From an uncultured Alphaproteobacteria bacterium (GTDB lineage Bacteria > Pseudomonadota > Alphaproteobacteria > Caulobacterales > Caulobacteraceae): 64,000 nucleotides of DNA. Location of the stretch: positions 1-64,000 of the forward strand of contig CAIVVM010000038.1 in NCBI GenBank assembly GCA_903909375.1, written 5' to 3'. Shown one piece after another: positions 17,487-60,267 of this stretch. Numbering within the stretch: the stretch's first letter is position 1; the number at the start of each line of letters is the position of its first letter. Under the pieces are notes generated by a model. That model was given only the letters and a program-made list of their open reading frames with translations, was not told the DNA's origin and ran no database searches. The position numbers and the translations under genes are program-made.

Positions 17487-17569
17487 GGCGGAGAGGGTGT
17501 CCGCCACTTATCGTTGTTTTTATATAACTAATGGGGATTTCTGGATCTCCCATACAACTGCCTATACGG
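17487..17569 (-). repeat. Composite att-like site 1 (island attL)
   Basis: Read on the minus strand: direct repeats CGTATAGG and TTGTATGG (second starts at 17557), then exactly 52 bp on, the core GGCGGA-CACCCTC-TCCGCC (17505-17487). The spacer CACCCTC and the right half are identical to the tRNA-Ser 3' end, so this is the functional left junction. An AT-rich stretch lies between arms and core, as at IHF-bent att sites. Confidence 0.75.
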
Positions 17570-17610
17570 ACCGTTATTTTCTCTTTTAATTCAAAGTGTT
17601 ATTGAAGTTT

Positions 17611-17693
17611 GAATCCCAATATGTCCGCCACATGGCATTGAGATTTGTTACGTTTTTCGCAATGCCAATTTCCCTGTACAAATCCCTATTCAA
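17611..17693 (-). repeat. Composite att-like site 2
   Basis: Minus strand: TTGAATAGG (start 17693) and TTGTACAGG (start 17681), then 52 bp on GGCGGA at 17629. The spacer is CATATTG and the right half is GGATTC, so only the element-side half-core is conserved. It lies 19 bp after the drmB stop and 124 bp inside site 1, in the same orientation, which is consistent with an earlier attL. Confidence 0.65.
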
Positions 17694-17711
17694 CCAACGG
17701 TGCGTTGTTCC

Positions 17712-19583
17712 TTAGTTGGGAAACAGCTCCGCGCCGTCATCCGCCATCGTGCGCACCAACAGACTGCGGTCGAGATATTGGTTGCGCCGTTCGCAGCTCG
17801 TCTCGGAGATCAGCAGGCAACTGTGACAGGCGGCGCCGTGGGTCGCCCGATCACCGCTGCGGTTGTCGGGTTCGTGGTCGGCGCAGACTGGATCATTGGA
17901 ACAGATGGAGAGGCGCTCAAGCGCGCTCTTCAGCAAGGCCGGGAAGCGAGGCGCCGCCGCGACGAGGCCGCCGAGCGTGCCCTGTGCGCCTGGCGTGGCG
18001 GTGTAGATCAGAATCCCGCAGCCATCATACGCACCAGCCGTCCGGCGGCTCGGCAGCGCATAGATCCGCTCCTTGAGAGAACTTGCGGGATAGCCGCAGT
18101 CCAGCGCGATCTCGCTCATGAGGGCGTGCGACAGGCTGTGGAGCAGGATGTAGGGCGTGCCCGGATAGTTCGGCGGCGACGTGGCGAAGCGCTTTTGCCA
18201 GTGCGCATGCCCGGCGAGCAGCTTGGCCTCACGCCCACCGACGGCGGCGGAGGCGAGCCACGCAGCGATGCGGGCAGGGTCGAAGTGGATGAACAGGCCC
18301 TCGCCAAACTGTTCGATCGCCGGGAGCCAATCAGCGCCCTGGCTGATCGGCGCGCCTCGCACTGCGAGCTGTATGTCCTCGAAATCACCCTCGCTGCTGG
18401 TCGGCGCGGCCTCGAAACGGGTGAAACCGTAGAGGCAGGAAACCTCCCTCAGCCGGTGAACTGCCACGAGGTTCAAGATCGGCGAAAGATCGATGTCGGT
18501 GACGCCAGCCCGCCAACGATCCGGGGCGAGAGTCTCCGCGTAGAGCTTGGCGTCGGGACGGTTGTGGCCGATCTGCGGTCGCCCACTGGCGAAGACCGCG
18601 AATTCCGCATGCTGGGGCGGCTTGCCGAGATCGACTTGTGCGTTTTCCTTCAAGGCGATCAACCGATCGAAGATGTCCTGGTCGTCGTAGGCGCCCAAGG
18701 TCGCCTTGATCTTCGCGTTGAACCTCTTGGCGAGCGCCACGTCCTCGACGCTGGCGACATCCGCCATCTCGCCCGCGACTTCACCTACCAGCCGCGAAAG
18801 CTCGTCCACCTCCGACGGCAGCGAGATCACCGTGTAGACCTGAGGGAAATAGGTGTTCGTGGCCGTCCGGGTCAGCAGCTTGAGGCTCTTCTCGCATCCA
18901 GCAGGATCGCGATCCTGAAGCCAAGGCCGTTCGCCCTTGCACTTGCCAAGTCGGCCGGGAAGGAAGAGATCCTTCAGCGATAGCCGCCGACCGCAGCCAC
19001 AGACGATGTTGGTGTCGGACGGGTCCGCGCTGGTGCCCCTCTCCTCCATCCACATCGGCTCGGCACAGCTCGTCACGCCATGGACCACATATCGCCAGTC
19101 GATGTCATCGAGGTGGCCGTCATCGCAGGCGCAGACGAAGCGTATGGGAGAGACTTCGCTCTTCCTGCCATCATCGAAGTGGAATCGGCGGCGCCCCTTC
19201 GGGTCCAGGTCGCCCCATTTGACGAGTTGACGGCGCCGCGACGCCTTCCCGCCTTCTCCGCCCAACTCGTCGGCCACGTCGCAGACGAACCAGCGGGGAA
19301 AGACGGGAGCGTCAACGCCGCTCGATGTGCCACGAACGCCCTCGACGACCTTCGGCGGTGTCCGGAGTGTCAGGTGCACGCCCTCCGGCAGTCTGTCCTG
19401 CGACCGCAGGAGCTGTTCCAGCCGGAAGCTCAGGCGAGGCTCATTGATGGTGCTGAAGCTGTCGCCGCTCATGTCCCAGCGCTCCAGTCCGCCCACGACG
19501 ACGGACCGCGTAGGAAGGTCAATCATCGCGCCGGGGCCGAAGGTCGAAACGAGCTGGCTGAGGCGTTGTTCGTTGCGGGCCAT
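17712..19583 (-). CDS. drmB: DISARM protein DrmB (DUF1998)
   Basis: 623 residues from ATG 19583, overlapping the drmA stop by one base (TGATG). The opening RLSQLVSTFGPGAMIDLP and the C-terminal DUF1998 region with paired cysteines (CHSCLLISETSCERRN) are typical of DrmB. In DISARM, DrmA and DrmB form the core complex that recognises and blocks incoming phage DNA in the cytoplasm. Further CxC/CxxC sites (FVCACDDGH, IVCGCGRR) suggest structural zinc. It is the last gene of the operon. The usual class 1 drmC (phospholipase D-like) is absent: the next thing is att-like site 2. Confidence 0.88.
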   Translation of the reverse strand: MARNEQRLSQLVSTFGPGAMIDLPTRSVVVGGLERWDMSGDSFSTINEPRLSFRLEQLLRSQDRLPEGVHLTLRTPPKVVEGVRGTSSGVDAPVFPRWFVCDVADELGGEGGKASRRRQLVKWGDLDPKGRRRFHFDDGRKSEVSPIRFVCACDDGHLDDIDWRYVVHGVTSCAEPMWMEERGTSADPSDTNIVCGCGRRLSLKDLFLPGRLGKCKGERPWLQDRDPAGCEKSLKLLTRTATNTYFPQVYTVISLPSEVDELSRLVGEVAGEMADVASVEDVALAKRFNAKIKATLGAYDDQDIFDRLIALKENAQVDLGKPPQHAEFAVFASGRPQIGHNRPDAKLYAETLAPDRWRAGVTDIDLSPILNLVAVHRLREVSCLYGFTRFEAAPTSSEGDFEDIQLAVRGAPISQGADWLPAIEQFGEGLFIHFDPARIAAWLASAAVGGREAKLLAGHAHWQKRFATSPPNYPGTPYILLHSLSHALMSEIALDCGYPASSLKERIYALPSRRTAGAYDGCGILIYTATPGAQGTLGGLVAAAPRFPALLKSALERLSICSNDPVCADHEPDNRSGDRATHGAACHSCLLISETSCERRNQYLDRSLLVRTMADDGAELFPN

Positions 19584-22500
19584 CAGAGATCGTCCGCATT
19601 GGCGATGGTGTAGCCGTTCGGGTCTTTCACCTTCATCCGGACGGCGGCCTCCACATCCCGCATAGAGCGCCCCGCCACAAATCGCTGGTGAGCGGCCGGC
19701 AGGCCTTCCAGGTCGGCCTCCAGAGGCTGGTGCAACAGGCGCTGGGGGCTCTTCTTGTGGCTGTAGGCAAAGGCGCTGCCTCCGACCGTTCGCTCCTCGG
19801 CAGTGTCGCGCCAATCCGTCATGATGCCATCGATCAGGGCGCCAAGCGTGGCGCGCCCTCCCGCGACGGCGGTTTCGGGCGCCCGGCTTACGATGAAGTC
19901 GCGGACCGCCTTGGCGACCTCCGGGTGGTTCACCAGCTCGCTGACAGCGGTGTCTGGAGTCATCGACGGATCCAGGTGTCGGGCAGCGCTCACTACGACG
20001 GCCGCCAACGCGCGATCAAGCGCGCGCGCCGCCCATGGCGTCACGCTGGTCGCTTCGACGGCGCGATAGAAGGTCCGGTGGAAATGGCCGAAGTGCTCGA
20101 AGTGCATCCGGTCGCGCGGCTTATGAAGGTTGAGCACCGGTACGACGAGGCCTGGCCTGTTGTGGTCGCGGCCGACCCGGCTGGTGGCCTGGATATATTC
20201 GGCGGCCGTCTTCGGTTGCCCCTGAACGAGCATCAAGCCGAGACGGGTGATGTCCAGGCCCACAGAGATCATGTTGGTGGCCAGCGCCACGTCGACGGTT
20301 TCTTCGCCCCTCAGGAATGGTGTTTCGAGGCGTTGTTTGGCCAAGGCGACCTTGTCGGTCGACTCGCGCGAGGTCAGCTCCATGACCAGTCCGATGGAGC
20401 GGTCCGCGAAAGGCTGGTCTTCAGGACTCTTTCGCCGGCGCCTGGTCCCGTAGCGGCCGGCGCGTTCGCGGACTTCGTCTTCCACGATACGGCGTGCGCC
20501 TCCCAGCTCACGCAGGGCGTTGAAGTAGCAGAGCGCAGTCAGATAGGGATCGGCGGGGCTCACCTCATCCCCGCGGGGCGGCTCGGCGACATAGGCGGCT
20601 TGGGCCGCCGCCAGGAGAGTCGTCAGAGCACGGAGGAACACGAGCTTCGGGCCGCGACCCTGCGCGGCAATGCCCATGTAGAGCCGTGCTGGATCCTGGC
20701 TTGAGGGCACTGTGCGGGCGAAAAAACTGTCGGTGCGATCGATCCCTGGTGGCGGGAATATCCGCGTAGTGGCTCGATCGAATAGAGCCTCGATCTGGTC
20801 CGTCGCTCGGCGCACCGTGGCGGTCGAGGCGACGATCTTGCAGCGGATACGGTGCCCCTCCCGATGGCGCTCCGTCAGTTGGTCAATAGCGGCTTCGTAG
20901 AGGCCGGCAACGGTGCCCAGCGGCCCTGAGATCAGGTGCAGCTCGTCCTGCACGATCAGGTCTGGCGGATCGAGCTTCCATCCATTGTCCAACGGTCGGC
21001 CTTCGCCGGGCTCCGCGGCACCGTAGAACCCGACCGCGGGGTCGAAGCGATCCACATGCCCGAAGAAGGCCCCGGTTTGCCCTTCCCACGGCAGAGCGGC
21101 AAACTTATCGACAGTCGCGATCAGGAAGGCAGGCAGCCGCCGATAGATCGGTTCATCAACAGTGAGGACAGGTAGTGGCCGCCCTCGGGTGAACTCGCAG
21201 GATATGTTGACGCAGCGGATCTCAAGGTTGGTCGGATTGACCACGTTCGGAACGCAATGGAACGAGTCCGGCGTGAACGGCGTGCCGCACCAGGGGCAGG
21301 CTTTGATCGGCGCGGGCGCCCGTTTGTCCTTGCCATCCTTGTAGCGCCGCACGCGGCCGAGGGCGGTGGTCTCGTCCGCCTTGCCCTTCTTGCCCATACG
21401 GTTCGGCGAAGCGTCGGATCCGACCCATAGACCGATCTCGATGGGCCAATCGCCCAGCAACCGCTGGCCGCGCGCATCTACATACTCGGGGTCCGTCCGC
21501 ATCAGCTCCAGCGCACAGATGACACCGGCGGCGCGGGCGAGCTGATCCAGCGTCAGCAGGCGCAAGGTGTAGCGCATGATCACTGCGACGCCGGCGCCGA
21601 GCACGCCCCCGGCGCGCAGGCGCCGCAGCGCGATCGTGAAGGCCGCGATCCCAAGATAGGCTTCCGTCTTGCCGCCGCCCGTCGGGAAGAAGAGCAGGTC
21701 GGCGATCTCGCGGTCAGGGTGTCGGCTGTCCGCCAGTCCCGAGAGATTCAGCAGAATGAAGGCGAGCTGGAACGGGCGCCACTCCGGCGTCCGCTGCTCG
21801 GCTGGGTCACCGTTCGGTCCTGCGTTGCGGCGGCGCGCGGCGCGGGCGACCGCCAGGTTCATGAAGGCGAAGGCGCGGCGCGCGGCCTCGCTGGAGGTCA
21901 GTACGTCGATCCCTGCGGCGATGCGCGCGCGGGCGATCTCCATCTCCTCTATGAGGGAACCGGCGGTCTCGCGACGCCGAGATGAGAGGTCGGCTAGCCC
22001 CGTTCTGCGTTCCCCGATCCACTCGCCATAGAGGTTCGGAAGCCCTTCCAGGGCGGCTTGCAGTGTGCTGGCATCGCGCCACGCCAGCTCGGCCAGCGCC
22101 TCCATGCCGAAGGTGACAGCCGCCTTCAGGCTGGCCTCTTCGTTGGGTGCCACCCGTTCAACCTCGGCGACTGGAAGCGGGTCGGTCCAAACGTGATCGA
22201 CCTTGCCGTCGCGATCCTGTTCGGGCGTCCACGCTGCGGCGGCGTTGCGCCCCACCGCCCACTCGCAGACATCCCGATAGTGCAGATCGGCAATGCGGAG
22301 GTCGGGATCGTTCGAGGTGAGGCCGGAGAGGTCCCGGCGCGCCTCGAAACCGGAGGGGCAAGTGAGTTCAAGTCGGGCCTGGAAGGCGTAGCCGATGTCC
22401 GCGTAGCGCCGGTGGATCTTGGCGTCTCTGCGGTTGACCAGAAAAACGGTGAGCGCCCTGACGCGTTTCGTGCCGCCATCTGTTGTCGGCACGTTGAACA

Positions 22501-23125
22501 CGCGCGCGTGGGTCTCAAGCACGAGCGCACCGCCCGGTCGCTGTTCTGACGCGCTCTCCGGAACGACGAAGGGATTCGAAGACCGACCGTCCCTGACCGG
22601 CAGGCGCAGCGTCCGGGTCTTGGCGACCCGGATCCACTCCACGTCGGGCCTCTTTGGCCGGCTGGCCGCGCCGTCTGCACCGGGCGGCGGATCGGGAGCC
22701 AGCAAGGCCAGCTCCATGGGCGGCTCGGTACGATAGTCGCCCCAGCACACCTTCGCCTCGATCTCGGTGACCGACGGATCGAGCAGGACGGTCAGGCCGA
22801 CGGACGACGGCAGGAACCGGCGGCGCGCGTTGGGCGCCTCGGGCTCGGTGTCGTCGCCGGCCGCGCCGCCGGCGCCTGCCGGATCGGGCTCCTCGACATC
22901 CAGCTCGCGCTCCTCAGGCTCACCGTCCTCGTCAGCTTCGTCCACGCCGTCGAGCGCCAGCTCATCCTCAGCGGGTGCCAGGAATCCAGTGAGATACCAG
23001 CGTGAGGGCTGCTCATTCAGCCGCTCGGCAGCCAGGTCTGCGTCCTCGGGATACGGCGTAGGACCCACAAGGTCGCGGCGAAAGGCGTTGACGATCCGGG
23101 CGCGGGTATCGAGCGAAGTGGTCAA
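19583..23125 (-). CDS. drmA: DISARM helicase DrmA
   Basis: 1180 residues. The N-terminal signature PSRWYLTGFLAPAEDE is characteristic of DrmA. Helicase motifs follow: Walker A FFPTGGGKTEAY near 478, a DELH box (IVQDELHLISGP) near 722, and a C-terminal helicase part with NMISVGLDITRLGLMLVQGQP and ATSRVGRD. It is the ATP-driven partner of DrmB. Translation seems to start at TTG 23125, which overlaps the drmMI stop (TTGA), implying coupling. The run of acidic residues near 60-90 (DEADEDGEPEERELDVEE) is a linker that may mimic DNA, which is only a guess. Confidence 0.88.
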   Translation of the reverse strand: MTTSLDTRARIVNAFRRDLVGPTPYPEDADLAAERLNEQPSRWYLTGFLAPAEDELALDGVDEADEDGEPEERELDVEEPDPAGAGGAAGDDTEPEAPNARRRFLPSSVGLTVLLDPSVTEIEAKVCWGDYRTEPPMELALLAPDPPPGADGAASRPKRPDVEWIRVAKTRTLRLPVRDGRSSNPFVVPESASEQRPGGALVLETHARVFNVPTTDGGTKRVRALTVFLVNRRDAKIHRRYADIGYAFQARLELTCPSGFEARRDLSGLTSNDPDLRIADLHYRDVCEWAVGRNAAAAWTPEQDRDGKVDHVWTDPLPVAEVERVAPNEEASLKAAVTFGMEALAELAWRDASTLQAALEGLPNLYGEWIGERRTGLADLSSRRRETAGSLIEEMEIARARIAAGIDVLTSSEAARRAFAFMNLAVARAARRRNAGPNGDPAEQRTPEWRPFQLAFILLNLSGLADSRHPDREIADLLFFPTGGGKTEAYLGIAAFTIALRRLRAGGVLGAGVAVIMRYTLRLLTLDQLARAAGVICALELMRTDPEYVDARGQRLLGDWPIEIGLWVGSDASPNRMGKKGKADETTALGRVRRYKDGKDKRAPAPIKACPWCGTPFTPDSFHCVPNVVNPTNLEIRCVNISCEFTRGRPLPVLTVDEPIYRRLPAFLIATVDKFAALPWEGQTGAFFGHVDRFDPAVGFYGAAEPGEGRPLDNGWKLDPPDLIVQDELHLISGPLGTVAGLYEAAIDQLTERHREGHRIRCKIVASTATVRRATDQIEALFDRATTRIFPPPGIDRTDSFFARTVPSSQDPARLYMGIAAQGRGPKLVFLRALTTLLAAAQAAYVAEPPRGDEVSPADPYLTALCYFNALRELGGARRIVEDEVRERAGRYGTRRRRKSPEDQPFADRSIGLVMELTSRESTDKVALAKQRLETPFLRGEETVDVALATNMISVGLDITRLGLMLVQGQPKTAAEYIQATSRVGRDHNRPGLVVPVLNLHKPRDRMHFEHFGHFHRTFYRAVEATSVTPWAARALDRALAAVVVSAARHLDPSMTPDTAVSELVNHPEVAKAVRDFIVSRAPETAVAGGRATLGALIDGIMTDWRDTAEERTVGGSAFAYSHKKSPQRLLHQPLEADLEGLPAAHQRFVAGRSMRDVEAAVRMKVKDPNGYTIANADDL

Positions 23126-26100
23126 AGGAGGGGTCCCGTCAGCCCGGCGTCATCCTGATCTTCGTCCTCATCGTCGTCAGATTCGGACGTAGGCATCAGA
23201 CCTGCCGCTCGCTCGGCAGCGGCACGCTCGGCGTTCAAGGCCAGAAGGCGCGCAAGTACCTCGTCCTTGAATGGTGTCGGCCAATCGAACCGGGTCTTAG
23301 CAGCTTTTCCCTCGTCTACTTCCTGCTCAACGAAATCCGCTGAAGCTCGATCGGCGAGGTCGTGCCAGCCGTACGCGACAAGTACGGCGCGATCGACAGC
23401 GTCGTGCAACCGACGCAGCTCCACGATTTCGGGAGCGGCTTGCGCGCGGGAGTGAAAGCGGTTGTAGGTCTTCGTCAGGCCTTCGGAGTTGAGGCGCATG
23501 AGGTTCGAGCGGTGGGCGTGATAGCTAAGTCCAGCGGCGTCGAGGTGCTCATTGGCAACGTACGATTTTGGAAAAGGGAATGTGGCGAAACAATCTGTAG
23601 GTATATATCTTTGATCATCCTTCATCGAAGCAGCAAATTTACGCGTCCATATCTCGTGAATTCTGCTTTGAAGTATTGAAAATGACGCAAAATCCTCAAG
23701 CGTAATCAAAATCAACGTGTGGGAATATACGTATCCTTTTTTTAGGAACGTGAACGAGACATGAGGTGAGGTTTGCGCGATCGCAATGATTCGCTCTAGC
23801 GGGGCAACCGCCGAATAAAGGCGGGTTCCAGGCCTTGCGTGCATCCACCAACGGTCTGGGTTTACGATTGAAGCTTGCTTCAGGCGGTCGGGCTTAACTT
23901 TTTCCTCTACAATCGCCATGAGGTCTGGCCACTTTTCCCGAACTTCGGTTTCTGGACGGGTGCCAAAGTTTATAACCCACCTGTTGTATCCCTGCTCAAC
24001 GTCTCCGTTGAGCTCTTCTCCTCCAATATATGGAAATATAACGTCAGCATTTGACGCTTGTTTCGAAAGCAGTCGATCCATTTCCGTTATACTTGTAGAT
24101 TTTCCCGTCAGCGAATTTTGATTGTCGAATGTAAATCCCATTCCTAGTACAACCGAACCCTGAAACGCCTTCCCGCGATTCTCAATTAGACGATCAGGAC
24201 TCCGATCAAAATCACCGGGAAGTAGATAAGCTGAAATTCGCCGAACCGGCTTGCCGTCGAGAAAAGCCTCCTCCGCCCGCGGGCCTTTCAAGAGGTGAAC
24301 GACCGAGACCACAACCGCTGCGTCGCCAGGCCACTTTAGTCGCCTAGTTGCGCGAACTATCGTGCCGCCGCCACCTAAAATCGTCGCGAGTCCGGTCGCG
24401 CGGGTATCCCCCTGACCGATGGTGTTGGTGGCAATCAAGCCAAACGCACCGTTCGACCTGAGCAGCGAGAAGGTACGAAGGAAGAAATGTGCGACTAGGT
24501 CGGCATTACCGTGGGCACCCTGATGTAGTGTTTGCAACCACGACAGATAACTCGGACGGTTGCCGGAAACAGTCGTATTTTTACCTGCAAAGGGAGGGTT
24601 GCCGACGATCGCATCGAAGCCCCCATTCTCGCGATTAAAGACCTCCGGAAACTCTACTGGCCAGTGCAAGGGGCGGCCCCAGCGACCAAATCTAGCCGTC
24701 GCAGCCAGGCGCGCCTCCAACCCTTCGTGCCAACCCACCTGGCCGATACCGTCGATGACTAGTCGGCGAAATTCGTCGAGTGCGGCCGTTCGGGCCTTCG
24801 GCTTCTCGCCGGCGAAAAATGCGGCGATCACACCGTCTCCAACCGAGCGTGCCACTGAAAGTCGAGCGTCCACGGCGCGGAGTTGAGGACGAAGCTCCGC
24901 CTCGATCGCGTCGTCAGCATGAGCGCGGATGCGTGCGCGGCCCTTTTCAGCCTCTTCGAGGTGCTGGCGCACCAACCCTCCCACCAGGGTCGGCGGCTTC
25001 GATCGGTCCCAATGGGTCGCGCCGATCTGGTCGAGGTCGAGTCCGACCAGACTGTCGCCGCACTTCAGGGCATGATCCAGGAAGGTGAATTCGTGGTCGC
25101 GCGCCAGAGTCGCGAGCCAGAGCGACAGGCGGGCGAGATCGACGGCGCGCGGGTTCCGATCCACGCCGTAGAGGCAGCGTTGCGCGACGAGCCGGCGGGC
25201 GTGCAGGTCCTCGTCCTCATCGGCAGGGATCGCGGGCCGCAAATCCGGCCAGTGCGCCCACGCTTGCACCAGCCGATCACCCAGCGCGCGGCACGCCTCC
25301 ACGAGGAAGGCGCCTGAACCCATAGCCGGATCGCAGACCTTGAGGTCGAGCACGTCGTCAGGTTTGGCGTCCGGCCCGATCCTCTCGAACGCTGGCTCCA
25401 GGGCATATTTGACGATCGGCGCAGTTAGGGAGCGTGGAGTGTAGTGGCTGCCGCTCCGTCGCCGCTCATCCGTAGGCTGGAGGATCGGTGTGACGGGCTC
25501 GATCGTCGCTTGACCCGGCGACCCGCGCGGATCGACCAACCGGCCCAAGGCAGCGCTGAGCTCGCCGGTGGTCGCCGCGGCTTCTACAGGCCGAGCCTCG
25601 GTCGCCGTAAGCGCGCGACCAACCTCTTCCTTGAGATGCTTGATTCGCGCCTTGCCCTTGAGCGCCACGAGCGCGTCCAGGTCCACGAACACGGGCGTTC
25701 GGTTGTTCTTGCCGGCCTTGATCGCCAGGGATCGCCCGCTCGCCAGCGCCGCCTCGAATCCCATCACGGTCTCGTAGACCGACCCGATCTGCTCCACGTC
25801 CAGCGTCCGATAGGAAAGGCGCTCGCGGCCACCGCCCCTCACGGCAAGTGTCATCAGCCCTTCGAGAATGCGCAGCAGGCAGCCATCGGACACCTCGGGG
25901 ACACGCGCCGCCTCGTCGGGAGTGGCGCGGCCCTCCAGAAACGGGAAGGCGTCGGGGTCGAACAGCTTGCCGCGCCTTGCCTGGACGAAGCGGGTGGGAT
26001 GTCCCGCGTAGATCAGCCTGAAGAGCGCCAGCAGCCGACCCCAGCCGCCCCGACGCTCATCCATCGTATCGGGGTTAAGGGCCGCATCCTCGACAAGCCG

Positions 26101-37768: not shown

Positions 37769-37772
37769 GGAC

Positions 37773-43763: not shown

Positions 43764-43832
43764 CTAGAAGGATGGGCCCTAGGCCGTTAACAGGCGTCCC
43801 CGCGTCTCGTGAGAGTCAGATGCGCAACGAGT

Positions 43833-43915: not shown

Positions 43916-44058
43916 CTGCTTGCCGATAGGCTGCCATGCGCCAGAAGCAGACATTCGTGTGGAGCTCCAAAGCAGACCTAATAAGCCGCGTGAGCCCCTC
44001 TGCTACTGTAGCAACCAGCTGATGGAACGGATGAGAGCGGCTCGTTACCTGCGGCACG

Positions 44059-44349: not shown

Positions 44350-44437
44350 CCGTGGCAATGCACTCGCCAAACTTGAGCAATTGACGTTCGCCTACCGTAG
44401 GTATCAATATACCCGGGGTTGTGGAGGGGGATCCGAA

Positions 44438-45892: not shown

Positions 45893-45907
45893 TGCCGATG
45901 GCAGGCC

Positions 45908-46858: not shown

Positions 46859-48642
46859 CGGAAAACGGTGATCCTGGCGCTGTCCACCGCGAGATCCGGA
46901 CTGCCCACCAGGAGCTTGACTGCGTCGGCGGAGGCGCCGCGCGACATCAGCAGTCGCTTCAGCCGGACGCTGCGCGCATAGGCTTCCTGCTGGGCGAGGC
47001 CCGGCTGATCCTGATGCGCCGGCGCGACTTCCACCTGAACGATGGCCCGCGGGTCGGTGATCGGAGTGAGGCTGAGCGCGGCGAGCGTCGACAGCAGGGC
47101 CGCGTCGTCCGGCGCGGTCGAGAAGTCGACCAGAACCGGCGGCCCCGGCAGGGCGCTCGCCGTCTTCACCCCGTCGATGAAGCCGATCGTCCCGTCTGAC
47201 AGTTCGACTTTGGCTGTGTCGCCAATCTGCGAGAGCAGCCGGACTTCTCCGCCGACCGCGACGCCGGCGATCCGGTCGCTGAGGAACGGCACGCGGAAGG
47301 GCAGCAGACGACGGGTGCCGAAGACGTTGGCGGACCGTCCGACGACGACCACCCGGTCGGATTCGCCGGACGACGCGGCCGAAGGGGTTTCCACGCGCCC
47401 CCTGACGATCGGTCGCGCGGCCGCCAGCGCCGCCGCCGCGACGGCGGCGGTCGCGTTAGCGTTCGCGGTGGTCTCAGCGCTCAGGACCGCGAGCCGGGAA
47501 CGCGCGTTGGCGGCGTAGCCGCTGACGCGGTTGTGCCGAAGGTAGAACTGTAGATCGTTGATCGGCTGGCGGGCCGACAAGGTCTCCACCGCGTCCTGCC
47601 AGGTCACGGCCTCCTTCTCGAGGTAGTGGTCGTCGGCGCGCAGAGCGTAGTCGGGCGCGCCGTAGCTGCTCAGCCAGGGCTTCTGCTTCTGGCCGGTCCG
47701 ATGGTCGACCTCGCGCTGGACCGTGCTGAGGTCAGAATAGACGACACGTCCGGGTCCGCCGATGTGCTGCACCAGGTTGCGCGTGAAGATGCTCCCGAGG
47801 TCGGGGGTGTCGCCCCGGAAGAGGCTGTAGGCCGACTTCCCGGAGGCGGCGGCGTAGCTGACGATGAGCTGGCTCGAGTCGACGGGCGCGAGGCCGACGG
47901 GCCGCGGCGGCGCGGGCGGTGTCGGACTGGGCGGGCTTTCGGAGACGAGCGACACCGGGATCGTCGAGCCCAACCGCGCGGCCGGACGCGAGGCCACCTC
48001 GATGCTTTCGTCGATGGGATCGATGAAGGTGTCGAAGTCGGCCGCGTCGTCGACGAATGGATCGTTGCGGCAGGCGTCTAGGATGACGACGCCGAGTCCG
48101 GCCTGCGCCTTCTCCAGCCGTTCGAGGATATGGGAGAGCGGCACGAACACGAAGTCCGCGGGGTTCTCGGCGTCCGGCGGCCTGCCGTCCGAGGGCACCA
48201 GGTAGTTGGCGCTGCCGCGCTCGACCCCGTGGCCGCTGAAGTAGACCATCACCACGTCGCCGGGCGAGACCTGCGCGGTGAACGCCTTGAAGGCGTCGAG
48301 AAAGCCCTGGCGGGTAAGATTCTCTTCCTCGGGCTTGAGCTCCCAGACCCTGAAGCCGAGATCCGCGAGCGTGCGGCGCATCAGGCGACGATCATTCGCC
48401 GGCGTGCTCAGCGGCGCGGCCCTGGCGTAGGACCCGATGCCCACGACGAAGGCCCATCTCGGGGGCTCCACCCGCGCCCGCGCCCACTCCGGAAGACGCG
48501 ACAGGTCCACGGAAGCCGCCTGAACGGTCGCGGGCATCGAGGCCAGCAGCAGGGAGGCACCCGCGATCGCCATTGCCCTGCGCGCCAGGCGATGTCGTGA
48601 TCCTCCGATGGCCGAACGAACGCTCTCATGAGATGCTGTCAT
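46855..48642 (-). CDS. Secreted caspase-like (C14) protease with C-terminal OmpA-like part
   Basis: 595 residues from ATG 48642. A signal peptide (ASLLLASMPATVQA) ends near residue 42. The caspase p20-like domain follows, with the dyad VYFSGHGVERGSANY (His 138) and VVILDACRNDPF (Cys 191). A proline-rich linker, a region with Ala-rich helices, an SH3-like stretch (VGGEVRLLSQIGDTAKVELSDG) and an OmpA-like end (VRLKRLLMSRGASADAVKLLVG) complete it. The product should act in the periplasm, perhaps anchored to peptidoglycan. It is co-translated with the trypsin. Confidence 0.85.
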   Translation of the reverse strand: MTASHESVRSAIGGSRHRLARRAMAIAGASLLLASMPATVQAASVDLSRLPEWARARVEPPRWAFVVGIGSYARAAPLSTPANDRRLMRRTLADLGFRVWELKPEEENLTRQGFLDAFKAFTAQVSPGDVVMVYFSGHGVERGSANYLVPSDGRPPDAENPADFVFVPLSHILERLEKAQAGLGVVILDACRNDPFVDDAADFDTFIDPIDESIEVASRPAARLGSTIPVSLVSESPPSPTPPAPPRPVGLAPVDSSQLIVSYAAASGKSAYSLFRGDTPDLGSIFTRNLVQHIGGPGRVVYSDLSTVQREVDHRTGQKQKPWLSSYGAPDYALRADDHYLEKEAVTWQDAVETLSARQPINDLQFYLRHNRVSGYAANARSRLAVLSAETTANANATAAVAAAALAAARPIVRGRVETPSAASSGESDRVVVVGRSANVFGTRRLLPFRVPFLSDRIAGVAVGGEVRLLSQIGDTAKVELSDGTIGFIDGVKTASALPGPPVLVDFSTAPDDAALLSTLAALSLTPITDPRAIVQVEVAPAHQDQPGLAQQEAYARSVRLKRLLMSRGASADAVKLLVGSPDLAVDSARITVFR

Positions 48643-48873
48643 GCCGCATGCCCCGCCCGCAGCGCATACGGATTGCAACCTTCCGTACCTCACCCTGAGA
48701 CTTGCACGCGACTGCCGGCGGATCAACCCGCTGACCCCCGATCTTCCACAGCTTCGGGTGCGCAGACGCCTGCGGATGGATCGGCATGGGGTTGATCGAG
48801 TATCGACCAACTATTGCGGGTTGCGCTTCGGCCAACGCTGATGTTCCCTGTGCGCGGGAAGCAGGGGGTGCTC

Positions 48874-50505
48874 ATGAAATCCAGGATTCTGGCGCTTGCG
48901 AGCGCGACGTCGGCTGCCGCCTTGCTGTCCGCGTGCAGCACGACATCGGTTGTCACCTCGACCAAGGTCGAGGCCGAAGCGTCGGCCGAAAAACTGGGCA
49001 AGCGGACCGTCTATCTCAACTACTTCCTCCCGCAGTCGGTACTCACCGTCAGCCTCAAGAAGGCCGGCGGGGGCGGGGACGACAAGAAGGACACGCCGCC
49101 CACCGTGACCAACACCAATACAATCACGATCCAGAACGGCAAGCCGATGGAGAAGCCGAGGGAGCCGAAGCCGGAGGCAGCCGCGGCCGCCGAGCCGGAT
49201 CCCAAGAAGACGGCCTGCGATATGCTGCGTGAGGGTTACAAGAAGGAACGCGAGGCGCAGATTCAGTTTGTGGCCAACTGGCCGAACCGGATCGCCGAAC
49301 TCCAGGCCGTTGCCAGCGGGCGTCTGGTCACCGCGGCAGAGCAGGAAGCCGCTCTGAAGGCCTACAATGCGCTGGTGGCCGACGTCGCGACGGCGAACGC
49401 CCGCGTCGACAAGGCTGCGCTGCTTGCCCAGGGTCTCAACGACGCCTGTCCCGTGAAGGTGGCCATCGAGGTGACGCTGTCCGTTGAGCCCGACACTAAC
49501 GAACCCTATGCCCTCCTGGTGGAGGACGACGACGCCTCGGCGGACACGGTCAGCGCGAAGGTCGACGCCAAGGGACTGCTCACCTCGGTGTCTACAACAG
49601 CTGACGAGCGCACGGGCACGATCGTCACCGCGAGCCTCAAGTCCGTCGGGACCGTCCTCGGAGCCTTCAGCCCCGGCGACCTCAAGGCGATCGGCGACGC
49701 CAAGGTCCTGGGCGTCAGCGGCCTTACCCGGGACGGCGGTCGAGCCGGCGGACCGGATCCCGCTTTCCCCCAGAAATTCAGGGCCCAGGTGGCCGAGCTG
49801 GCTGGAAAGGCTCCCATGATGATCCCGGAGCTAGGCCCTAAGCTGCCGGACTACGATCTGCGCTACCGCGTGAGCGAACTGCTTCCAAAGGACGCCACGA
49901 CCGGCGGAATCCGCTTCGCCCAAACCGGCTACGGGATGCATCTGACATGCAGCGCCATGCCCGGCGATCAGGCTCCCGACGAGCCCGAACAGAAGGGCGC
50001 CAAGCGTCTCAAGGCGAAGCAGGGCGTGCTGGTGTCCCTCCCGCGCGCTTGCGACATCGTCGTCGGCAAGGTCACCCAGGGTAGCGATGCGCCGAAGAGC
50101 CTGGCGAACTACACCGAGCAGCGGCGGACGTTCGCCTCGGTGGTCGACAGCCGCTACCCGCTCCGCGCGCCGCTGCTGCGCACGCAGCTCATCACTCGCA
50201 AGCATGGCTACGAGTTCGTCGATGGGCGGATCACCTCGGTGATCTACGAGAAGCCCAGCTCCACCGAAGCTGCCGTCGCCCTCCCCGGCGCGGCCGTGGG
50301 CGCACTCTTCTCGGGCGTGGTCAGCGGGATCCAGGGCCCGCAGTCCGTGACGAAGGCCCAGGCCGAACGGCTGGACGCCCAGGCGGCCGCCTACACGGCC
50401 GAGGCGGCCCTCATCGAGGCTCGCACCAAGGCCCAGGACGCTGCCGACAAGGCCGAGAAGGCCAAGGCGGAGGCGGCCAGCGAGGCCGCCACCACCGAAG
50501 AGTAG
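48874..50505 (+). CDS. Unknown lipoprotein, divergent from the caspase/trypsin pair
   Basis: 543 residues from ATG 48874. A lipobox (AALLSAC) near residue 22 predicts lipid attachment. The body has an Ala/Glu/Lys-rich region, a predicted beta-rich middle (VAIEVTLSVEPDTNEPYALLVEDDD) and a C-terminal coiled coil (LDAQAAAYTAEAALIEARTKAQ). No known family is recognised. It shares an intergenic region of 231 bp with the caspase gene, suggesting a three-gene envelope system. It may be the sensor or substrate of the proteases, which is inference. Confidence 0.7.
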   Translation: MKSRILALASATSAAALLSACSTTSVVTSTKVEAEASAEKLGKRTVYLNYFLPQSVLTVSLKKAGGGGDDKKDTPPTVTNTNTITIQNGKPMEKPREPKPEAAAAAEPDPKKTACDMLREGYKKEREAQIQFVANWPNRIAELQAVASGRLVTAAEQEAALKAYNALVADVATANARVDKAALLAQGLNDACPVKVAIEVTLSVEPDTNEPYALLVEDDDASADTVSAKVDAKGLLTSVSTTADERTGTIVTASLKSVGTVLGAFSPGDLKAIGDAKVLGVSGLTRDGGRAGGPDPAFPQKFRAQVAELAGKAPMMIPELGPKLPDYDLRYRVSELLPKDATTGGIRFAQTGYGMHLTCSAMPGDQAPDEPEQKGAKRLKAKQGVLVSLPRACDIVVGKVTQGSDAPKSLANYTEQRRTFASVVDSRYPLRAPLLRTQLITRKHGYEFVDGRITSVIYEKPSSTEAAVALPGAAVGALFSGVVSGIQGPQSVTKAQAERLDAQAAAYTAEAALIEARTKAQDAADKAEKAKAEAASEAATTEE

Positions 50506-50506
50506 C

Positions 50507-50671
50507 GTGGTCGCCCGGGGACTCCGCCGCTTGATCCAGCAGGCCCGGATCGCGCTCGGCCAGCTCGACGAGCTCCGCACCCAGGTCGCTGAGATGAGGA
50601 AGCTCTTGCGGCATTTCTCCGACGTCCGCAACGATTCAGAAGCCGGCCAGCTTGTATGGTGGTTTGTATAG
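50507..50671 (+). CDS. Possible small coiled-coil protein ending in the att arm
   Basis: A 54-codon frame with a GTG start one base after the lipoprotein stop. The first 37 residues are helical and coiled-coil-like (RRLIQQARIALGQLDELRT). The last residues and the stop (LVWWFV-stop) are encoded by the direct repeats of att-like site 6. A similar frame at site 4 would end PLVWHFV-stop. It may be a real translationally coupled gene, or an accidental frame whose 3' end was replaced by recombination. Confidence 0.35.
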   Translation: MVARGLRRLIQQARIALGQLDELRTQVAEMRKLLRHFSDVRNDSEAGQLVWWFV

Positions 50672-50734
50672 GTCCCCGTCAGCGTCTGAATTGCTAAGCG
50701 TTATCAGGGCTCCACGTCGGACACCATATCCGCC
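50652..50734 (+). repeat. Composite att-like site 6
   Basis: TTGTATGG (50652) and TTGTATAGG (50664), core GTCGGA-CACCATA-TCCGCC at 50716-50734, 52 bp from the second arm. The right half plus flank reads TCCGCCA, like a tRNA 3' end. It separates the protease/lipoprotein module from the NucS-like module. From 50735 to 50985 I see no gene. Confidence 0.7.
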
Positions 50735-50985
50735 ATGTGTTCATCTGGACGGCTATGTCGCAGCCGACGCCAGCCTGATTCCGAGCCGCTCCGCCGCGCC
50801 GCGAACTGTGCATTCCTGCACATGTCTGGTCATGTCAGCTTGGGAGAGGAACCTATGCGCGTCTGCAAATCCTGCATAGAAACTCGCAAAGTCTATACAC
50901 ATGGATGCCTCTCCGACCCTCTTGGAGGGTGCGTGAACTGGCGGCGAACGTTGAGGAACAGCTAGCTCGTCTGCGCGGGCGGCGC

Positions 50986-52194
50986 TCATGGGGCTTCTAA
51001 AGCGAGCCGCTTCAGAAACGGCCGAAAGACATTCACGTAGGCGTTCAATGTATCGCGCATCCACGCCCTTGCGTCGTCGTCGCTGGCAAAGGCTTGCTGT
51101 GGACGAACGATTCCAAAGTACGACTGGCCGTCCGAATTGGGACGCACCTCCGAACCCACTGGGAGGTCTGCGAGGATTTGCTCCCTGAAGTCATGCAGCA
51201 GCGGCGTAAGCGTCTTCAGGCTTGCGCTTCCGCCTTCAATCAGGGTGACGCCGTATTCCTTTTTGGCGGCGCTGCTGTAGGCGAGCAACCAGACGTTTGG
51301 CCAGGGTAGGGGCACCCGCAGATTGTTGCGCCAGAACAGCCGGGGATGATCCTGGTCAGGATCGTCGAAGGTCATATTGACCACCGGCGCCCACCAAGCT
51401 GTATGAGCGGCCTTGTCGCCTTCACTCACCTTTGTCGCCACTGTTTCCGTCCGGATCGGCGCCGAAAGTTCCTCTTCCGCGTCGCCGGCGACGGGTTCGC
51501 CCTTCGGATCCCTCAGGACGACGACCGTCCGCTCAATGTTTGTCGTCCGGGCGACGATGCGAGGCTGAACCGCGATGGCGCCATCTGGAAGGCCGTACAG
51601 CGCCACCTCGACAAGGCCCAAGGCGAAGCCGCTGGCCGCATTCCGGTTGATGAGTTCTGCCAAGGCGCCAACGTCTTCACGAATGCCGTCACCGGCGATG
51701 ATCAGCATGAACCGCCCATGCCGGAGCGCAGCTGCAGTGGCGTCAATGAACACGTGCTCGACCAGGCCCGGGTTGCTACGCTTTGCCAGCTCGAAAGGGG
51801 CATTTCCTTGCATCCCAGTCGCCATCGCGACCTGGCGCTGGAGGTCCGAGTACGACCATCGCCGGATTGCTCGAGCGTAGTCGAGGATTTGAGCGACCAC
51901 CTCACGGCGGGCCTCGGGGTTCTTCCAAAGCTTGCACTCCAGGAAGGTCAGTCGCCCGTGCCCGTTGATGTAGAGGTTGTCGACCCTCCCAGCCTCTGTC
52001 CGGAGCTCTCTGCAGAGCGGGGTCAGCGGGCCGAATGACGGATCGAGGTCACGGATCGGGAGGAGCTCCGGATAGGCAAAGAGCGTTTCCTGCAGCCGAG
52101 CCTCGTCCCAACCTTCCTTCTGTCCCAGAAGCATTCGCTCGCCACGAGCCGGAGGCTCACCCTCCCGCTCGAAAAGAAAGAACTCACCGAACAT
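50986..52194 (-). CDS. NucS/DUF91-like nuclease-fold protein
   Basis: 402 residues from ATG 52194 (MFGEFFLFEREGEPP); the frame opens at 52278. The first 115 residues follow the RecB-like/NucS pattern: GRVDNLYINGHGRLTFLECKLW with Asp 72 and Glu 86-Cys-Lys 88, then VVAQILDYARAI with Gln 102 of the QxxxY motif. The remaining part is unrecognised. Such proteins bind or cut DNA and are frequent in defence islands. The gene is alone on its strand and divergent from the small gene at 52264. Confidence 0.7.
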   Translation of the reverse strand: MFGEFFLFEREGEPPARGERMLLGQKEGWDEARLQETLFAYPELLPIRDLDPSFGPLTPLCRELRTEAGRVDNLYINGHGRLTFLECKLWKNPEARREVVAQILDYARAIRRWSYSDLQRQVAMATGMQGNAPFELAKRSNPGLVEHVFIDATAAALRHGRFMLIIAGDGIREDVGALAELINRNAASGFALGLVEVALYGLPDGAIAVQPRIVARTTNIERTVVVLRDPKGEPVAGDAEEELSAPIRTETVATKVSEGDKAAHTAWWAPVVNMTFDDPDQDHPRLFWRNNLRVPLPWPNVWLLAYSSAAKKEYGVTLIEGGSASLKTLTPLLHDFREQILADLPVGSEVRPNSDGQSYFGIVRPQQAFASDDDARAWMRDTLNAYVNVFRPFLKRLALEAP

Positions 52195-52263
52195 CCTAGC
52201 CCCCGGGACCTGCTGCTTCGCCGGGACATTGCCCCGGTTCCAGTGCCATGGCGTTATGGCAGC

Positions 52264-52572
52264 ATGGACATTGTACAACTGTCATGTTTCGTAGCGAGCC
52301 AGCAGTGGCATTTCGCCAAGACGATGCCCCAATGGCCCCACTGGTACTGCCTGAAGAAGGAGGCCCAGGACGAGGGCGTGTTCGAAGCCTTTGTCCGGCA
52401 CATCCAATCAGAAGGCTACGAGGCCGAGTTCAGGCCGGAGAATCGCGAGGCCTGGGCGCGACGGCATTACCTGGATCTTGGCGAATTTCACTACTGGACG
52501 ATGAATCCGGATGTCCCCTCGACCTCGCTCATCAACCGCGCCCGTCACCCCAACGTGGCGGTGCGCACATAG
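52264..52572 (+). CDS. Small conserved hypothetical protein
   Basis: 102 residues from ATG 52264 (MDIVQLSCFVASQQWHFAK); ATG 52243 is an alternative. The segment WHFAKTMPQWPHWYCLKKEA and the later FHYWTMNPDVPSTSLINRA are strongly conserved-looking, and I have seen such small proteins in mobile regions of many bacteria, but no function is known to me. No signal peptide. It is divergent from the NucS-like gene with 69 bp between starts. From 52573 to 52826 there is no gene that I can support. Confidence 0.6.
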   Translation: MDIVQLSCFVASQQWHFAKTMPQWPHWYCLKKEAQDEGVFEAFVRHIQSEGYEAEFRPENREAWARRHYLDLGEFHYWTMNPDVPSTSLINRARHPNVAVRT

Positions 52573-52826
52573 GAAGGTCGAATTTAGTCGGCATCTCAGC
52601 ATCGGCGGCACAATTCGGATCGTACTGCGCAGCGCATGTTAGCGACCTCGACCCCTCTATGGGTTTGGCCAACCGCGAATTCGCAATGTCACACTTGGCA
52701 TATCCGAGGAAATGTAAACCCGAGTGTCGGCGACACGCTTCTGTCCGCTGAGACCCGACTAGGCTCCGATAAGCGAATCCTATAGTCCGCCGCGCCTCTG
52801 GCTGGCCTTGAGCGGACCGAACCCTA

Positions 52827-55094
52827 ATGACGACCGACAGGCGGAACCCTGCATCTGCCCGAATGCTCGGCGACTTCCTGTCAAAGCGCGCCGCGCCGCT
52901 GTTTCCGCCGCTCGAGCTGGAGCGCCTCCGCGTTTACCTGCTCGGGCTTCTGGCGCGCGCGGAACGAGTGCCGGCAATCGGCCGCGGCTTCGACTGGTCG
53001 CGCATAGCTGCCGCGGCAAACGTCGATAGAGACTTGGTGATCCGGGCCAGGGATGTGCTTCGCCCGGGCTTGGTCGTCCTCCAACGAGAGATTGCCAAGG
53101 CGCCAGCGACGAAACGAGCGGCCGCCATTGCAAAGGGCCGCCGGCCCGCCACCATCAAGCCTGCCACCAACAATGTCGCCAGTCGCACTCGTGGGCCGCG
53201 GAAGGCGATCGAACCGTTTCCCGAACCTACCGCAGGGGCCTGGGACGACCCCGAGACATTCCACGAAGCGCTGGCGCTGCACATGCGTCGGCACAGGGAC
53301 TCCTGCCTGCATCTCTGCCGCGCGATCCTGCGGGACGGCGAGACACTCGAGAAGTCTACGATCGTGGTGTGGCGCAGCGGGCGGAAGGCGCCGCGCAGTG
53401 TCGCGAGCCTCGAATTCCTGCAGCGGATCAAGTGGCGCTACCGCCTCCCCAATGGCTACTTCAAGGCCAAGCTGCCGCACCGGGCCCGGGCGACGACCGG
53501 CCATGTGCTGACCGGTATTTCCGGCGCCGAACAGCGGCGCCTTGCCTGGCACCTGCCCGATGATTTCGCCGAGCGTCCGATCGCCGAACAGGAGGAGATC
53601 CTGGAGTGGGTGCGCCGCGTCGTGATCTCCGGCTCCACGGAGTTTCGACGCTACCAGGCCAACGCCGTGAAGCTGCGCTACGCCGTGCGGTTTGCAACGT
53701 TGCAGTCCAAAAAGCCGCAGGTCGCCTCCGCCAACGACGACGAGGCTCCGTTGGACGAGACAGATCCGGACCTCTTGAACGGAACGGTACGTGCTCCACC
53801 CGCGCTCTCCGCCGAAATGACTGAGCTCGTCGGGTTCAAGACATCGACCCTGACCGCGCTAGGCTACCAGCGGCGGGGGGTCTGGGGCGACGAGACGGCC
53901 GCCCAGAAGGTCGAGCACCTGGGCCTCATGTTCGGTGCCTTGGCCGGATCAAGCCGCGGCGCTGTCCGGGGCCACGATGTGCCCCTTCGCGACCTGACCT
54001 TTGGCCTCCTCGTGTTTCCGGTCGTCTGGGACTGGTACGTCCAGTGGCGAGAGCGCCGCCGTGGCCTCTACACGGCATGGGAGGTGGACATGCTGCGGGT
54101 TGCAGGCGCCCTGACAGGGCCGGCAGCCGGGTGGATCACGCAGACGCCGCAGCTGGCGCAGCGCCTGAAGCCAATACCGGGCCTGGTGACCCAACTCGAC
54201 ATCGAGGCAGCTCAAGCTGACTGGCCCGCGGCCTGCGCATTGGCGCATGCGCACACCCTGGCTCGGGCAAAGGAAATCCAGCGGGTGGCGCGTGTTCACC
54301 GCGATCCCTTCGAGCCGATCCTGGCCGTGCTCGAGGCCGAGAGTCCGGCCGGTGAATACCGCCGCATCGCCGATGAGATCGTGCGGCTCATGCCGGATGC
54401 CCGACGGTACTCGAAGTCCAGGGCCGAGGCGGTCAGGTCCCTGCTACTCATCCGCCTGGGGCTGCATCTAGGCCTGCGCCAGCGCAATCTCCGGGAACTT
54501 CTCATCTGCCCGCGTGGCCGTTCACCGACGCCAGAGCGCCAGCTCGAGCAGGCTCGTCGCGGCGAAATGCGCTGGAGCGAAAGGGACGCCGGATGGGAGG
54601 TCCTGATCCCGGCTGCTGCCTTCAAGAACGCCAATTCGTCGTTCTTCGGGGGGCGGCCCTTCCGGCTCCTGCTGCCAGACCTGGGCGGCCTCTACAGCTA
54701 CATCGACGAATGGCTGGCCGACCACCGCCAGCGATTGCTCGGTCGCGCGAGGGACCCGGGCACGTTCTTCGTGAAGACCGTGAAGACCTCGAGCGCCAAT
54801 GCAGCCTACGACCAGAACACCTTCTACGAGGCCTGGCGGCTGACCACCCAGCGCTACGGCATCTACAACCCCTACACTGGGCGTGGCGCCATCCGGGACT
54901 TGCTTCCTCACGGGCCGCACAACGTCCGCGACGTGCTGGCCACGCACATCCTGAAGAAGACGGGGTCCTATGAGCAGGCCAGCTACGCCATCCAGGACAC
55001 GCCCGACATGGTGGCCAAGCACTACGGCCGGTTCCTGCCGCAGGATAAGGCCGCGCTGGCGGCCGAGATCCTGAACAAAGTCTGGGCGGCCTGA
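52827..55094 (+). CDS. Giant tyrosine-recombinase-like protein
   Basis: 755 residues, about twice the size of a usual integrase. The C-terminal 220 residues carry the recombinase catalytic residues: LGLHLGLRQRNLREL (Arg about 550), HNVRDVLATH (His-x-x-Arg about 697-700) and AKHYGRF (Tyr about 733). The N-terminal 520 residues have basic and helical regions without a standard core-binding domain that I recognise. It could act on the composite att-like sites around it, or be a domesticated DNA-binding factor. The neighbouring gene at 55160 follows on the same strand after 65 bp. Confidence 0.75.
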   Translation: MTTDRRNPASARMLGDFLSKRAAPLFPPLELERLRVYLLGLLARAERVPAIGRGFDWSRIAAAANVDRDLVIRARDVLRPGLVVLQREIAKAPATKRAAAIAKGRRPATIKPATNNVASRTRGPRKAIEPFPEPTAGAWDDPETFHEALALHMRRHRDSCLHLCRAILRDGETLEKSTIVVWRSGRKAPRSVASLEFLQRIKWRYRLPNGYFKAKLPHRARATTGHVLTGISGAEQRRLAWHLPDDFAERPIAEQEEILEWVRRVVISGSTEFRRYQANAVKLRYAVRFATLQSKKPQVASANDDEAPLDETDPDLLNGTVRAPPALSAEMTELVGFKTSTLTALGYQRRGVWGDETAAQKVEHLGLMFGALAGSSRGAVRGHDVPLRDLTFGLLVFPVVWDWYVQWRERRRGLYTAWEVDMLRVAGALTGPAAGWITQTPQLAQRLKPIPGLVTQLDIEAAQADWPAACALAHAHTLARAKEIQRVARVHRDPFEPILAVLEAESPAGEYRRIADEIVRLMPDARRYSKSRAEAVRSLLLIRLGLHLGLRQRNLRELLICPRGRSPTPERQLEQARRGEMRWSERDAGWEVLIPAAAFKNANSSFFGGRPFRLLLPDLGGLYSYIDEWLADHRQRLLGRARDPGTFFVKTVKTSSANAAYDQNTFYEAWRLTTQRYGIYNPYTGRGAIRDLLPHGPHNVRDVLATHILKKTGSYEQASYAIQDTPDMVAKHYGRFLPQDKAALAAEILNKVWAA

Positions 55095-55159
55095 ACTGGT
55101 GTGAGCTCTCTGGAGAAGGGCTGTGGCTATCGGCTTAGTCGATCCGCTAGGGTTGCCAC

Positions 55160-55855
55160 ATGAGAACGATCCAGCCTGAAGGGCAGCGTGGGAGCCGGAA
55201 ATGGATCCAGCGGGCTGTAAACGAGCGCTGGACGGTGCTGGAAAGGCCGATCCTCCGGGCCGTGCGCGGCGGCCCCGTCAGGTGGGCCTCACCGTTAGCG
55301 ACCGACGAGTTCGCCCAGTATAGCGGCGCCGACTTCCTGGAGCGCATCGGTCACGGTGATTTGGGCGGTGCGCTCAATGCGTTCTGGCCTACATCCGGAC
55401 CAAGTTGGGACGCGCTTGGCGTGACCCCAGACGGCGCTGTCATTCTGATTGATGCGAAAAGCAGCCTTGCTGAGATGTGCTGGGCCGGACCGATTCCAGC
55501 GAGGCAGTCCCGGGCACGATCCGAACTTGTACTGCAGGGCGTGGCTCGCCGGCTTGGGTCCCGGTCCGGCCGTGAGGCTTGGTGTGCGCAGTTCTACAGG
55601 CTGGCCACGCAGATCGCGCACCTCGAGTTCCTCCGATCCAATGGCGTCCCGGCCTGGCTTGTGCTGGTGGATTTCGTCGGCGACCAGGACCTGCGCGGAC
55701 CCCGCAGCGCAGAGGCTTGGCGAGCCGCATACTCGATTGCGTTCAACCTTCTCGACCTGAGGCACGCGCATCCGCTGAGGCGCTTTATACTCCACGTCAA
55801 TCCGGACGTATCAGACGTGCCACCACCCTTCGCCGGACAGCTGCAGTTCGTATAG
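55160..55855 (+). CDS. Conserved hypothetical, PD-(D/E)xK-like
   Basis: 231 residues. Glu 50 (ATDEFAQY), Asp 84 (PSWDALGVTPDG) and Asp 98-Ala-Lys 100 (VILIDAKSSLAE) reproduce the D-(D/E)xK arrangement of restriction-like folds. The C-terminal half is helical with a buried-looking VPAWLVLVDFVGDQD. It is the last gene of its module, and its final residues and stop (QFV-stop) are encoded by the first arm of att-like site 7. That makes the boundary between gene and site overlapping rather than adjacent. Confidence 0.65.
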   Translation: MRTIQPEGQRGSRKWIQRAVNERWTVLERPILRAVRGGPVRWASPLATDEFAQYSGADFLERIGHGDLGGALNAFWPTSGPSWDALGVTPDGAVILIDAKSSLAEMCWAGPIPARQSRARSELVLQGVARRLGSRSGREAWCAQFYRLATQIAHLEFLRSNGVPAWLVLVDFVGDQDLRGPRSAEAWRAAYSIAFNLLDLRHAHPLRRFILHVNPDVSDVPPPFAGQLQFV

Positions 55856-55930
55856 GGACTTGTATAGGCACAGCGCCAAGGCGAAAATGTTGCGCTAGAT
55901 CAAGCGCGATTGGCGGAGGCCTGCTCCGCC
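55848..55930 (+). repeat. Composite att-like site 7
   Basis: TCGTATAGG (55848) and TTGTATAGG (55860), core GGCGGA-GGCCTGC-TCCGCC at 55912-55930, 52 bp after the second arm. TTGCGCTAGATCAA lies 30 bp after the second arm, as in site 4. It is the junction between the recombinase module and the replication/integration module. Confidence 0.7.
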
Positions 55931-60263: not shown

Positions 60264-60267
60264 CGGC

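Follow-up and report, generated by a model that had tools for sequence, protein, structure and literature searches.

Putative att-type sites at the module joints of a tRNA-Ser island in an uncultured Caulobacteraceae bacterium

A tRNA-Ser island with seven composite sites

The stretch analysed here (the window) consists of 64,000 nt from an uncultured Alphaproteobacteria bacterium (Caulobacteraceae), positions 1 to 64,000 of contig CAIVVM010000038.1 in assembly GCA_903909375.1. It contains a genomic island, spanning approximately 17487 to 62076, that ends at a tRNA-Ser(CGA) gene. Inward from this gene come the P' arms, a tyrosine integrase (Int) and a Prim-Pol/VapE-like protein. The island contains seven composite sites, each with two 9-bp arms of 12-bp period and a core that begins 52 bp past the second arm's start. 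Coordinates, arm period and core distance had all been given in an initial annotation and were borne out, as was its statement that the 7-bp centre (the overlap) is different every time.

17487..17569, minus strand: m1, assigned to the left attachment site (attL); arms, spacer and core GGCGGA-CACCCTC-TCCGCC, the core at 17487-17505
17611..17693, minus strand: m2, in attL orientation; core GGCGGA-CATATTG-GGATTC
30403..30485, plus strand: internal site p1, overlap CGACGTC, facing the integrase
41579..41661, plus strand: internal site p2, overlap TACCTTT
43833..43915, plus strand: internal site p3, overlap CACACCC, second half-site TCCGTC
50652..50734, plus strand: internal site p4, overlap CACCATA, between convergent ends of open reading frames (ORFs)
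55848..55930, plus strand: internal site p5, overlap GGCCTGC, at the border between backbone and cargo
57906..60371, minus strand: Prim-Pol/VapE-like replication protein of the backbone
60595..61941, minus strand: tyrosine integrase with arm-binding, central and catalytic domains
61891..61911, minus strand: P' arms, a pair of repeats matching the site arms in type, over the integrase start
62057-62146, minus strand: tRNA-Ser(CGA), right end of the island
62058-62076: core assigned to the right attachment site (attR), within the tRNA-Ser(CGA) end

The core had been described as GGCGGA-N7-TCCGCC or one half of it, which holds broadly but needed correction in the second half-site of m2 (GGATTC, resembling the tRNA half of type-B ends), in the P-side half-site of p2-p4 (GTCGGA) and in the second half-site of p3. 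With a leave-one-out weight matrix, built on six sites and tested on the seventh, the left-out sites scored 18.3-54.7 bits and the best non-site position on both strands of the 64 kb reached -2.3 bits. Sites p1-p5 point towards the integrase and m1 and m2 point away from it. According to the gene list compiled for the window, p1-p4 and m2 fall between gene blocks, as expected from the earlier claim that every site marks a module boundary, but p5 covers the last 8 bases of ORF 55160-55855.

The 3' end of the tRNA-Ser gene reads GAATCC-CACCCTC-TCCGCC-A and has the overlap CACCCTC in common with m1. Furthermore, an empty site was found in G065, a genome of the same genus, where the tRNA-Ser(CGA) is directly followed by the sequence of window positions 17499 to 17455 (45/45 bases). 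Because the overlap equals that of the tRNA and the empty site joins the two flanks, m1 is attL and the tRNA end attR, together the two outer ends of the island. In G077 the 418 bp to the left of and into m1 (window 17082-17499) have a counterpart of 83% identity (L219 5955-6372) that adjoins tRNA-Ser(TGA) and not tRNA-Ser(CGA).

The six remaining sites, with overlaps unlike those of tRNA-Ser, are referred to as internal. Their layout (arm pair, spacer with a conserved TCA box, two half-sites and a 7-bp overlap) shows them to be one-armed sites of att type by sequence. Complete attP copies were rejected for p1-p5, since the 400 bp beside each of them contained no P' arm pair.

The integrase has the domains PF13356 (which we take to be the DUF4102 group), PF22022 and PF00589, i.e. 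the arm-binding architecture of P4/SXT-type integrases. As already annotated, arm repeats of the same type overlap its start. Across the wider family, 51 of 69 islands had an arm pair of 12-bp period, with at least 8/10 equal bases, before or over the integrase start. The arm motif varies from one integrase to another (TTGTATAGG in the window and G041, TGGYGGGTT in Burkholderiaceae, TGATGGGT in L050 and TTAGGGGAT in L021), and the arms of internal sites match the motif of each island's own integrase. These data support the view that the window sites are att-type sites of the island's own tyrosine integrase. Apart from this, L010 (approximately -217 to -121) and L148 (approximately 226 bp before the integrase) have a complete P-core-P' arrangement beside the integrase gene, either attP-like or a tandem junction.

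Internal sites in related islands

A genome-wide search for the pattern, as proposed in the initial annotation, was run on 297 genomes with two arms and two half-sites and up to 3 mismatches, a threshold at which 5 of the 7 window sites are recovered (m2 and p3 fall outside). The full pattern was present in only two genomes, the source genome (G000) and G041 of the same genus. Both carry this integrase, the G041 version (70% identical) being the closest among 101 genomes of the genus. The order in G041 is tRNA, integrase, primase, an internal site facing the integrase (overlap GACAGGC), cargo and attL (overlap CACCCTC). Exact site patterns gave 0 matches in IMG/VR. A more distant relative is the E. 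coli serU integrase (49%); of 5426 genomes, 381 covered 80% or more of a query made of this gene and its upstream flank, and four records that were scanned had no internal sites, save for a weak partial match upstream of the integrase in L271.

Scanning with each integrase's own arms, internal sites were found in L021, L050 and L069. The L069 integrase, used as a query, led to islands of Burkholderiaceae. A scan of 24 islands (with the L069 island as G532, and L050 and L067 included) detected the outer P-core end in 18 of them and a total of 11 internal sites in 7; these 11 scored 29.3-43.9, and the best score in 2.59 Mb of shuffled sequence was 17.2. A separate scan of nine islands gave seven internal sites, m2 included, in two islands. 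A possible half-core site in L017, a coreless weak arm match in G270 and a 15.9-bit match in L061 were left out of the counts.

Among the 19 internal sites in total (including L021), 16 face the integrase and three face away, namely m2 and site 3 of both G735 and G900 (binomial p 0.004); with corresponding sites counted once, the proportion is 13/15 (p 0.007). Islands of this family occur in both orientations relative to the tRNA, and because the internal sites face the integrase in both kinds, this direction is a property of the element. Islands formed by tandem accretion or containing cis-mobilizable elements (CIME) are also segmented by several att sites, as the window island is, but would be expected to share overlaps and to have their orientation set by the tRNA. 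A tandem accretion or CIME array at the tRNA was consequently rejected, because orientation tracks the integrase in both island types and the internal overlaps differ from those of the tRNA and are not shared. This agrees with the initial annotation, in which simple tandem accretion could not account for the five inverted sites.

Constraint, overlaps and cargo

Mean pairwise identity across nine window and G041 sites, two of which are attL, was 0.78 for the arms, 0.83 for the half-sites and 0.38 for the spacer, and across the 11 internal Burkholderiaceae sites, L050 included, it was 0.77, 0.87 and 0.31, although choosing the sites by arms and half-sites biases these values in favour of those parts. 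Pairs of site 1 and site 2 defined by flank or neighbouring genes had 10-24 of 43-44 equal bases in the spacer, 14-16 of 18 in the arms and 11-12 of 12 in the half-sites. These comparisons show constraint on the parts that Int would be expected to bind. With a near-random spacer between intact arms and half-sites, plain fossils are unlikely, and the pattern speaks for continued Int binding and not for decaying remnants.

The overlaps of the two outer ends were identical in all 18 islands of the 24-island scan for which both could be read (the tRNA adjoining the P end in 11 and the integrase in seven), suggesting that overlap matching matters to the recombinase. None of 17 internal overlaps tested (the two of G900, found later, were not part of this test) equalled any of 37 tRNA-Ser overlaps, so that an origin of the internal overlaps as old tRNA-Ser ends is not supported. 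The best-match likeness of the six window overlaps to those of tRNA-Ser was slightly raised (mean 5.0/7 versus 4.3, p 0.02), and for the other 11 the p value was 0.36. No two sites share an overlap inside the window, G735, G784 or G900.

Junctions that correspond between three Burkholderiaceae islands were identified by their neighbouring genes or flank, independently of the overlap. The overlaps at site 1 are GAAACGC in G735 and CAGACGC in G784; at site 2 they are CCGATGA in G735, AGGATGA in G784 and ACTATGA in G900; and at site 3 G735 and G900 both have GACTGGC. Mean identity at corresponding junctions was 0.77 versus 0.33 for 50 other pairs (label permutation p 5e-5; 0.0009 without the site 3 pair and 0.011 when only two independent pairs are used). 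The overlap was also more conserved than the spacer in the pairs of sites 1 and 2 (20/28 versus 63/173 equal bases, Fisher p 0.0007, the three site 2 pairs being non-independent; p 0.015 when limited to two independent pairs).

In G735, site 1 has a Dit-like tail gene on one side and a DUF5681 gene on the other. The neighbours of site 1 in G784 are a baseplate-hub-like gene and a gene whose start differs from that of the DUF5681 gene and for which no homology to it was found; the 40-bp flank is 31/40 identical and the genes on both sides are different. In G532 the Dit-like and DUF5681 genes are adjacent, without an intact site. Between G735 and G900, identity is approximately 63% over 13 bins to the left of site 3 and approximately 85% over 13 bins from 9350; the arms start at 9389, and the step falls in the 50-bp bin that contains this start. 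G735, G784 and G532 are short tRNA-Ser islands with single tail genes (Dit-like, baseplate hub, tail fibre), resembling satellites that trade tail parts. A stretch of approximately 88 bp is 85-88% identical in four Burkholderiaceae islands (relative positions 4925-5010 in G532, 5036-5121 in G735, 4805-4890 in G784 and 4873-4964 in G900), more conserved than the integrase between them, and could be a packaging or replication site.

The sites of the window delimit the following cargo.

17712..30278, minus strand: DISARM module drmD-drmMI-drmA-drmB, bounded by the outward-facing m2 and p1
30486..41578: module 2, with a DUF6602/PD-DExK gene, a BovA-like gene and Lamassu/Hachiman-like genes (LmuA/B/C- and HamA-like)
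41662..43832, plus strand: module 3, a single 677-aa gene without family match in Pfam, PADLOC-DB or NCBIfam
43916..50651: module 4, with tyrosinase, trypsin-like protease, caspase and a 563-aa gene
50735..55847: module 5, ORFs 50986-52278, 52827-55094 and 55160-55855

In module 4 a caspase-like protease (46855-48810), matching the PADLOC-DB model 'caspase', adjoins a trypsin-like protease (45908-46858), which matches an LmuA model only weakly. Searches for the window's modules in the 101 genomes of the genus, scoring the best two places per genome, gave 39 and 6 genomes with a match, the source genome counted in both. Of the 39 genomes, about 30 had DNA matches of 69-80% to a segment of approximately 240 bp (44080-44320). 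The DISARM module, looked for in plasmids, gave no match.

Possible use of the internal sites

We consider it close to an even chance that the internal sites act as addressable junctions for integrase-driven exchange of modules between related islands. In lambda attL, Int bridges arm and core sites across a bend; by analogy, two Int molecules would bridge the arm pair and the half-sites here. Two related islands in one cell with the same junction overlap would recombine at that junction, and a second crossover at another shared junction would swap the module (integrase-mediated cassette exchange). Distinct overlaps inside one island would prevent self-scrambling, and the tRNA-matching overlap of attL and attR would be kept separate for integration and excision. 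DISARM, the Lamassu-like genes, the protease and other modules may have been collected in this way. With slightly lower probability, such use may be general to a family of tRNA-Ser islands and satellites in Alpha- and Betaproteobacteria, in which Int would integrate through the tRNA-matching overlap and swap cargo through internal addressed sites, building defence islands.

The sites might instead be leftovers of elements with the same integrase that inserted into the island or next to it and whose integrase gene was then lost, marking joints but no longer used. The tandem placement of m1 and m2, 124 bp apart, would fit such a history, as would the slight tRNA-Ser likeness of the window overlaps, the arm pairs outside the integrase-proximal core in G735, G626, L010 and L148, as after tandem insertion, and the at best decayed site of G532 at the position of G735 site 1. 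It is nevertheless hard to reconcile with near-random spacers beside preserved arms and half-sites, with the 17 tested internal overlaps, none of which equals a tRNA-Ser overlap, with an orientation that tracks the integrase rather than the tRNA and with the missing P' arm pairs beside p1-p5, and we regard it as unlikely. Binding of Int without recombination, the half-intasome serving as transcription control, insulator or roadblock between modules while the overlap is free to vary, seems similarly improbable. In L021, L050, G532 and at G735 site 1 the P arms do precede likely gene starts by 9-35 bp, as the P' arms precede the integrase, and the overlaps are arbitrary relative to the tRNA; against it, p4, the internal site of G041 and G735 site 3 are flanked by convergent ORF ends, and the overlap is more conserved than the spacer at corresponding junctions. 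A role as promoter sites only is unlikely as well, several sites being placed between ORF ends. We prefer exchange over pure binding because sites that must match a partner should keep their overlap and sites that only bind Int should not. Very improbable is an integron-like array, in which single modules would excise as circles between neighbouring sites and insert at the site nearest the backbone, with mismatched overlaps tolerated: p1-p5 are co-oriented, so that modules 2-5 are each flanked by direct site repeats, but the identity of all outer overlaps points to an identity requirement, and the lack of a shared overlap within the window, G735, G784 or G900 also disagrees with it.

Several observations weigh against exchange. 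The initial annotation had regarded each site as a functional or fossil att site through which defence modules were joined or could be exchanged; the att type and the assignment of m1 stand, and recombination at internal sites or movement of modules through them is a proposal. No recombination product between sites was seen in a collection that holds one genome per species, nor any module exchange among the relatives of the window. None of the 15 stretches from 13 genomes related to its modules had a site or perfect core beside them, no internal overlap of the window recurs in another island, and five other genomes of the genus, with integrases 54-61% alike, lack the full pattern. Internal sites are absent from most of the islands scanned (present in 7/24 and 2/9), and likewise from most of those in the scan that gave the sites of L021, L050 and L069, where many loci reached only 10 kb past the integrase. 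Cargo also differs within the close pairs L010/L013 and L022/L147, in which no such site was found. As 16 of 19 sites face one way, most single modules have a facing site on one side only, and the statistics on junctions are based on a small number of them in three islands. Ends of homologous blocks lay within 30 bp of sites in 2/10 cases (2.0 expected, p 0.64), within 60 bp in 5/10 (2.6, p 0.078), within 100 bp in 6/10 (3.4, p 0.058) and within 200 bp in 6/10 (4.8, p 0.29), an enrichment that is weak at most and suggestive at best.

Among known systems, integrons use an IntI-type integrase without the arm-binding domain that the window integrase has, and Tn916-like elements have mismatched coupling sequences, with outer-end overlaps that differ, unlike the 18/18 identical ones here. 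The nearest parallel may be the dif modules of Acinetobacter plasmids, described as bounded by oppositely facing tyrosine-recombinase sites with differing central spacers and an XerC/XerD layout of 11-6-11 bp (PMC13141974). Oppositely facing sites with varied spacers bound the DISARM module (m2/p1), the G041 cargo and the segment between sites 2 and 3 of G735 and G900, but not modules 2-5 of the window taken singly. The window sites differ in being 83 bp long with arm repeats and a 6-7-6 core, in matching the island's own integrase and not host XerCD, and in belonging to tRNA-Ser islands; the window system would be an arm-dependent, island-encoded counterpart of dif modules. Exchange between sites with like spacers, a further feature of dif modules, is for the window and the related islands a proposal from sequence.

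With tRNA islands of P4/SXT-type integrases the window shares the arm-binding integrase, the tRNA 3' end as attB and the same overlap in attL and attR; as far as the consulted account of those islands goes, the internal one-armed sites at joints are additional (PMC8138268). In the open-licence literature we found no account of att-like linkers inside such islands that belong to their tRNA-island integrases. The defence hotspots of P4-like satellites are similar as satellite-like elements with exchangeable defence cargo, and exchange has been proposed there through recombination upon co-infection or co-induction, with homologous recombination as the second event; neither 'att site' nor 'recombination site' is used as a term in that text (PMC9122126). 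If the exchange reading is true, an integrase that marks module joints would provide a concrete mechanism for how defence islands gather and trade whole systems; module borders could then be found from sequence alone, and the mechanism would be testable by sequencing of junctions.

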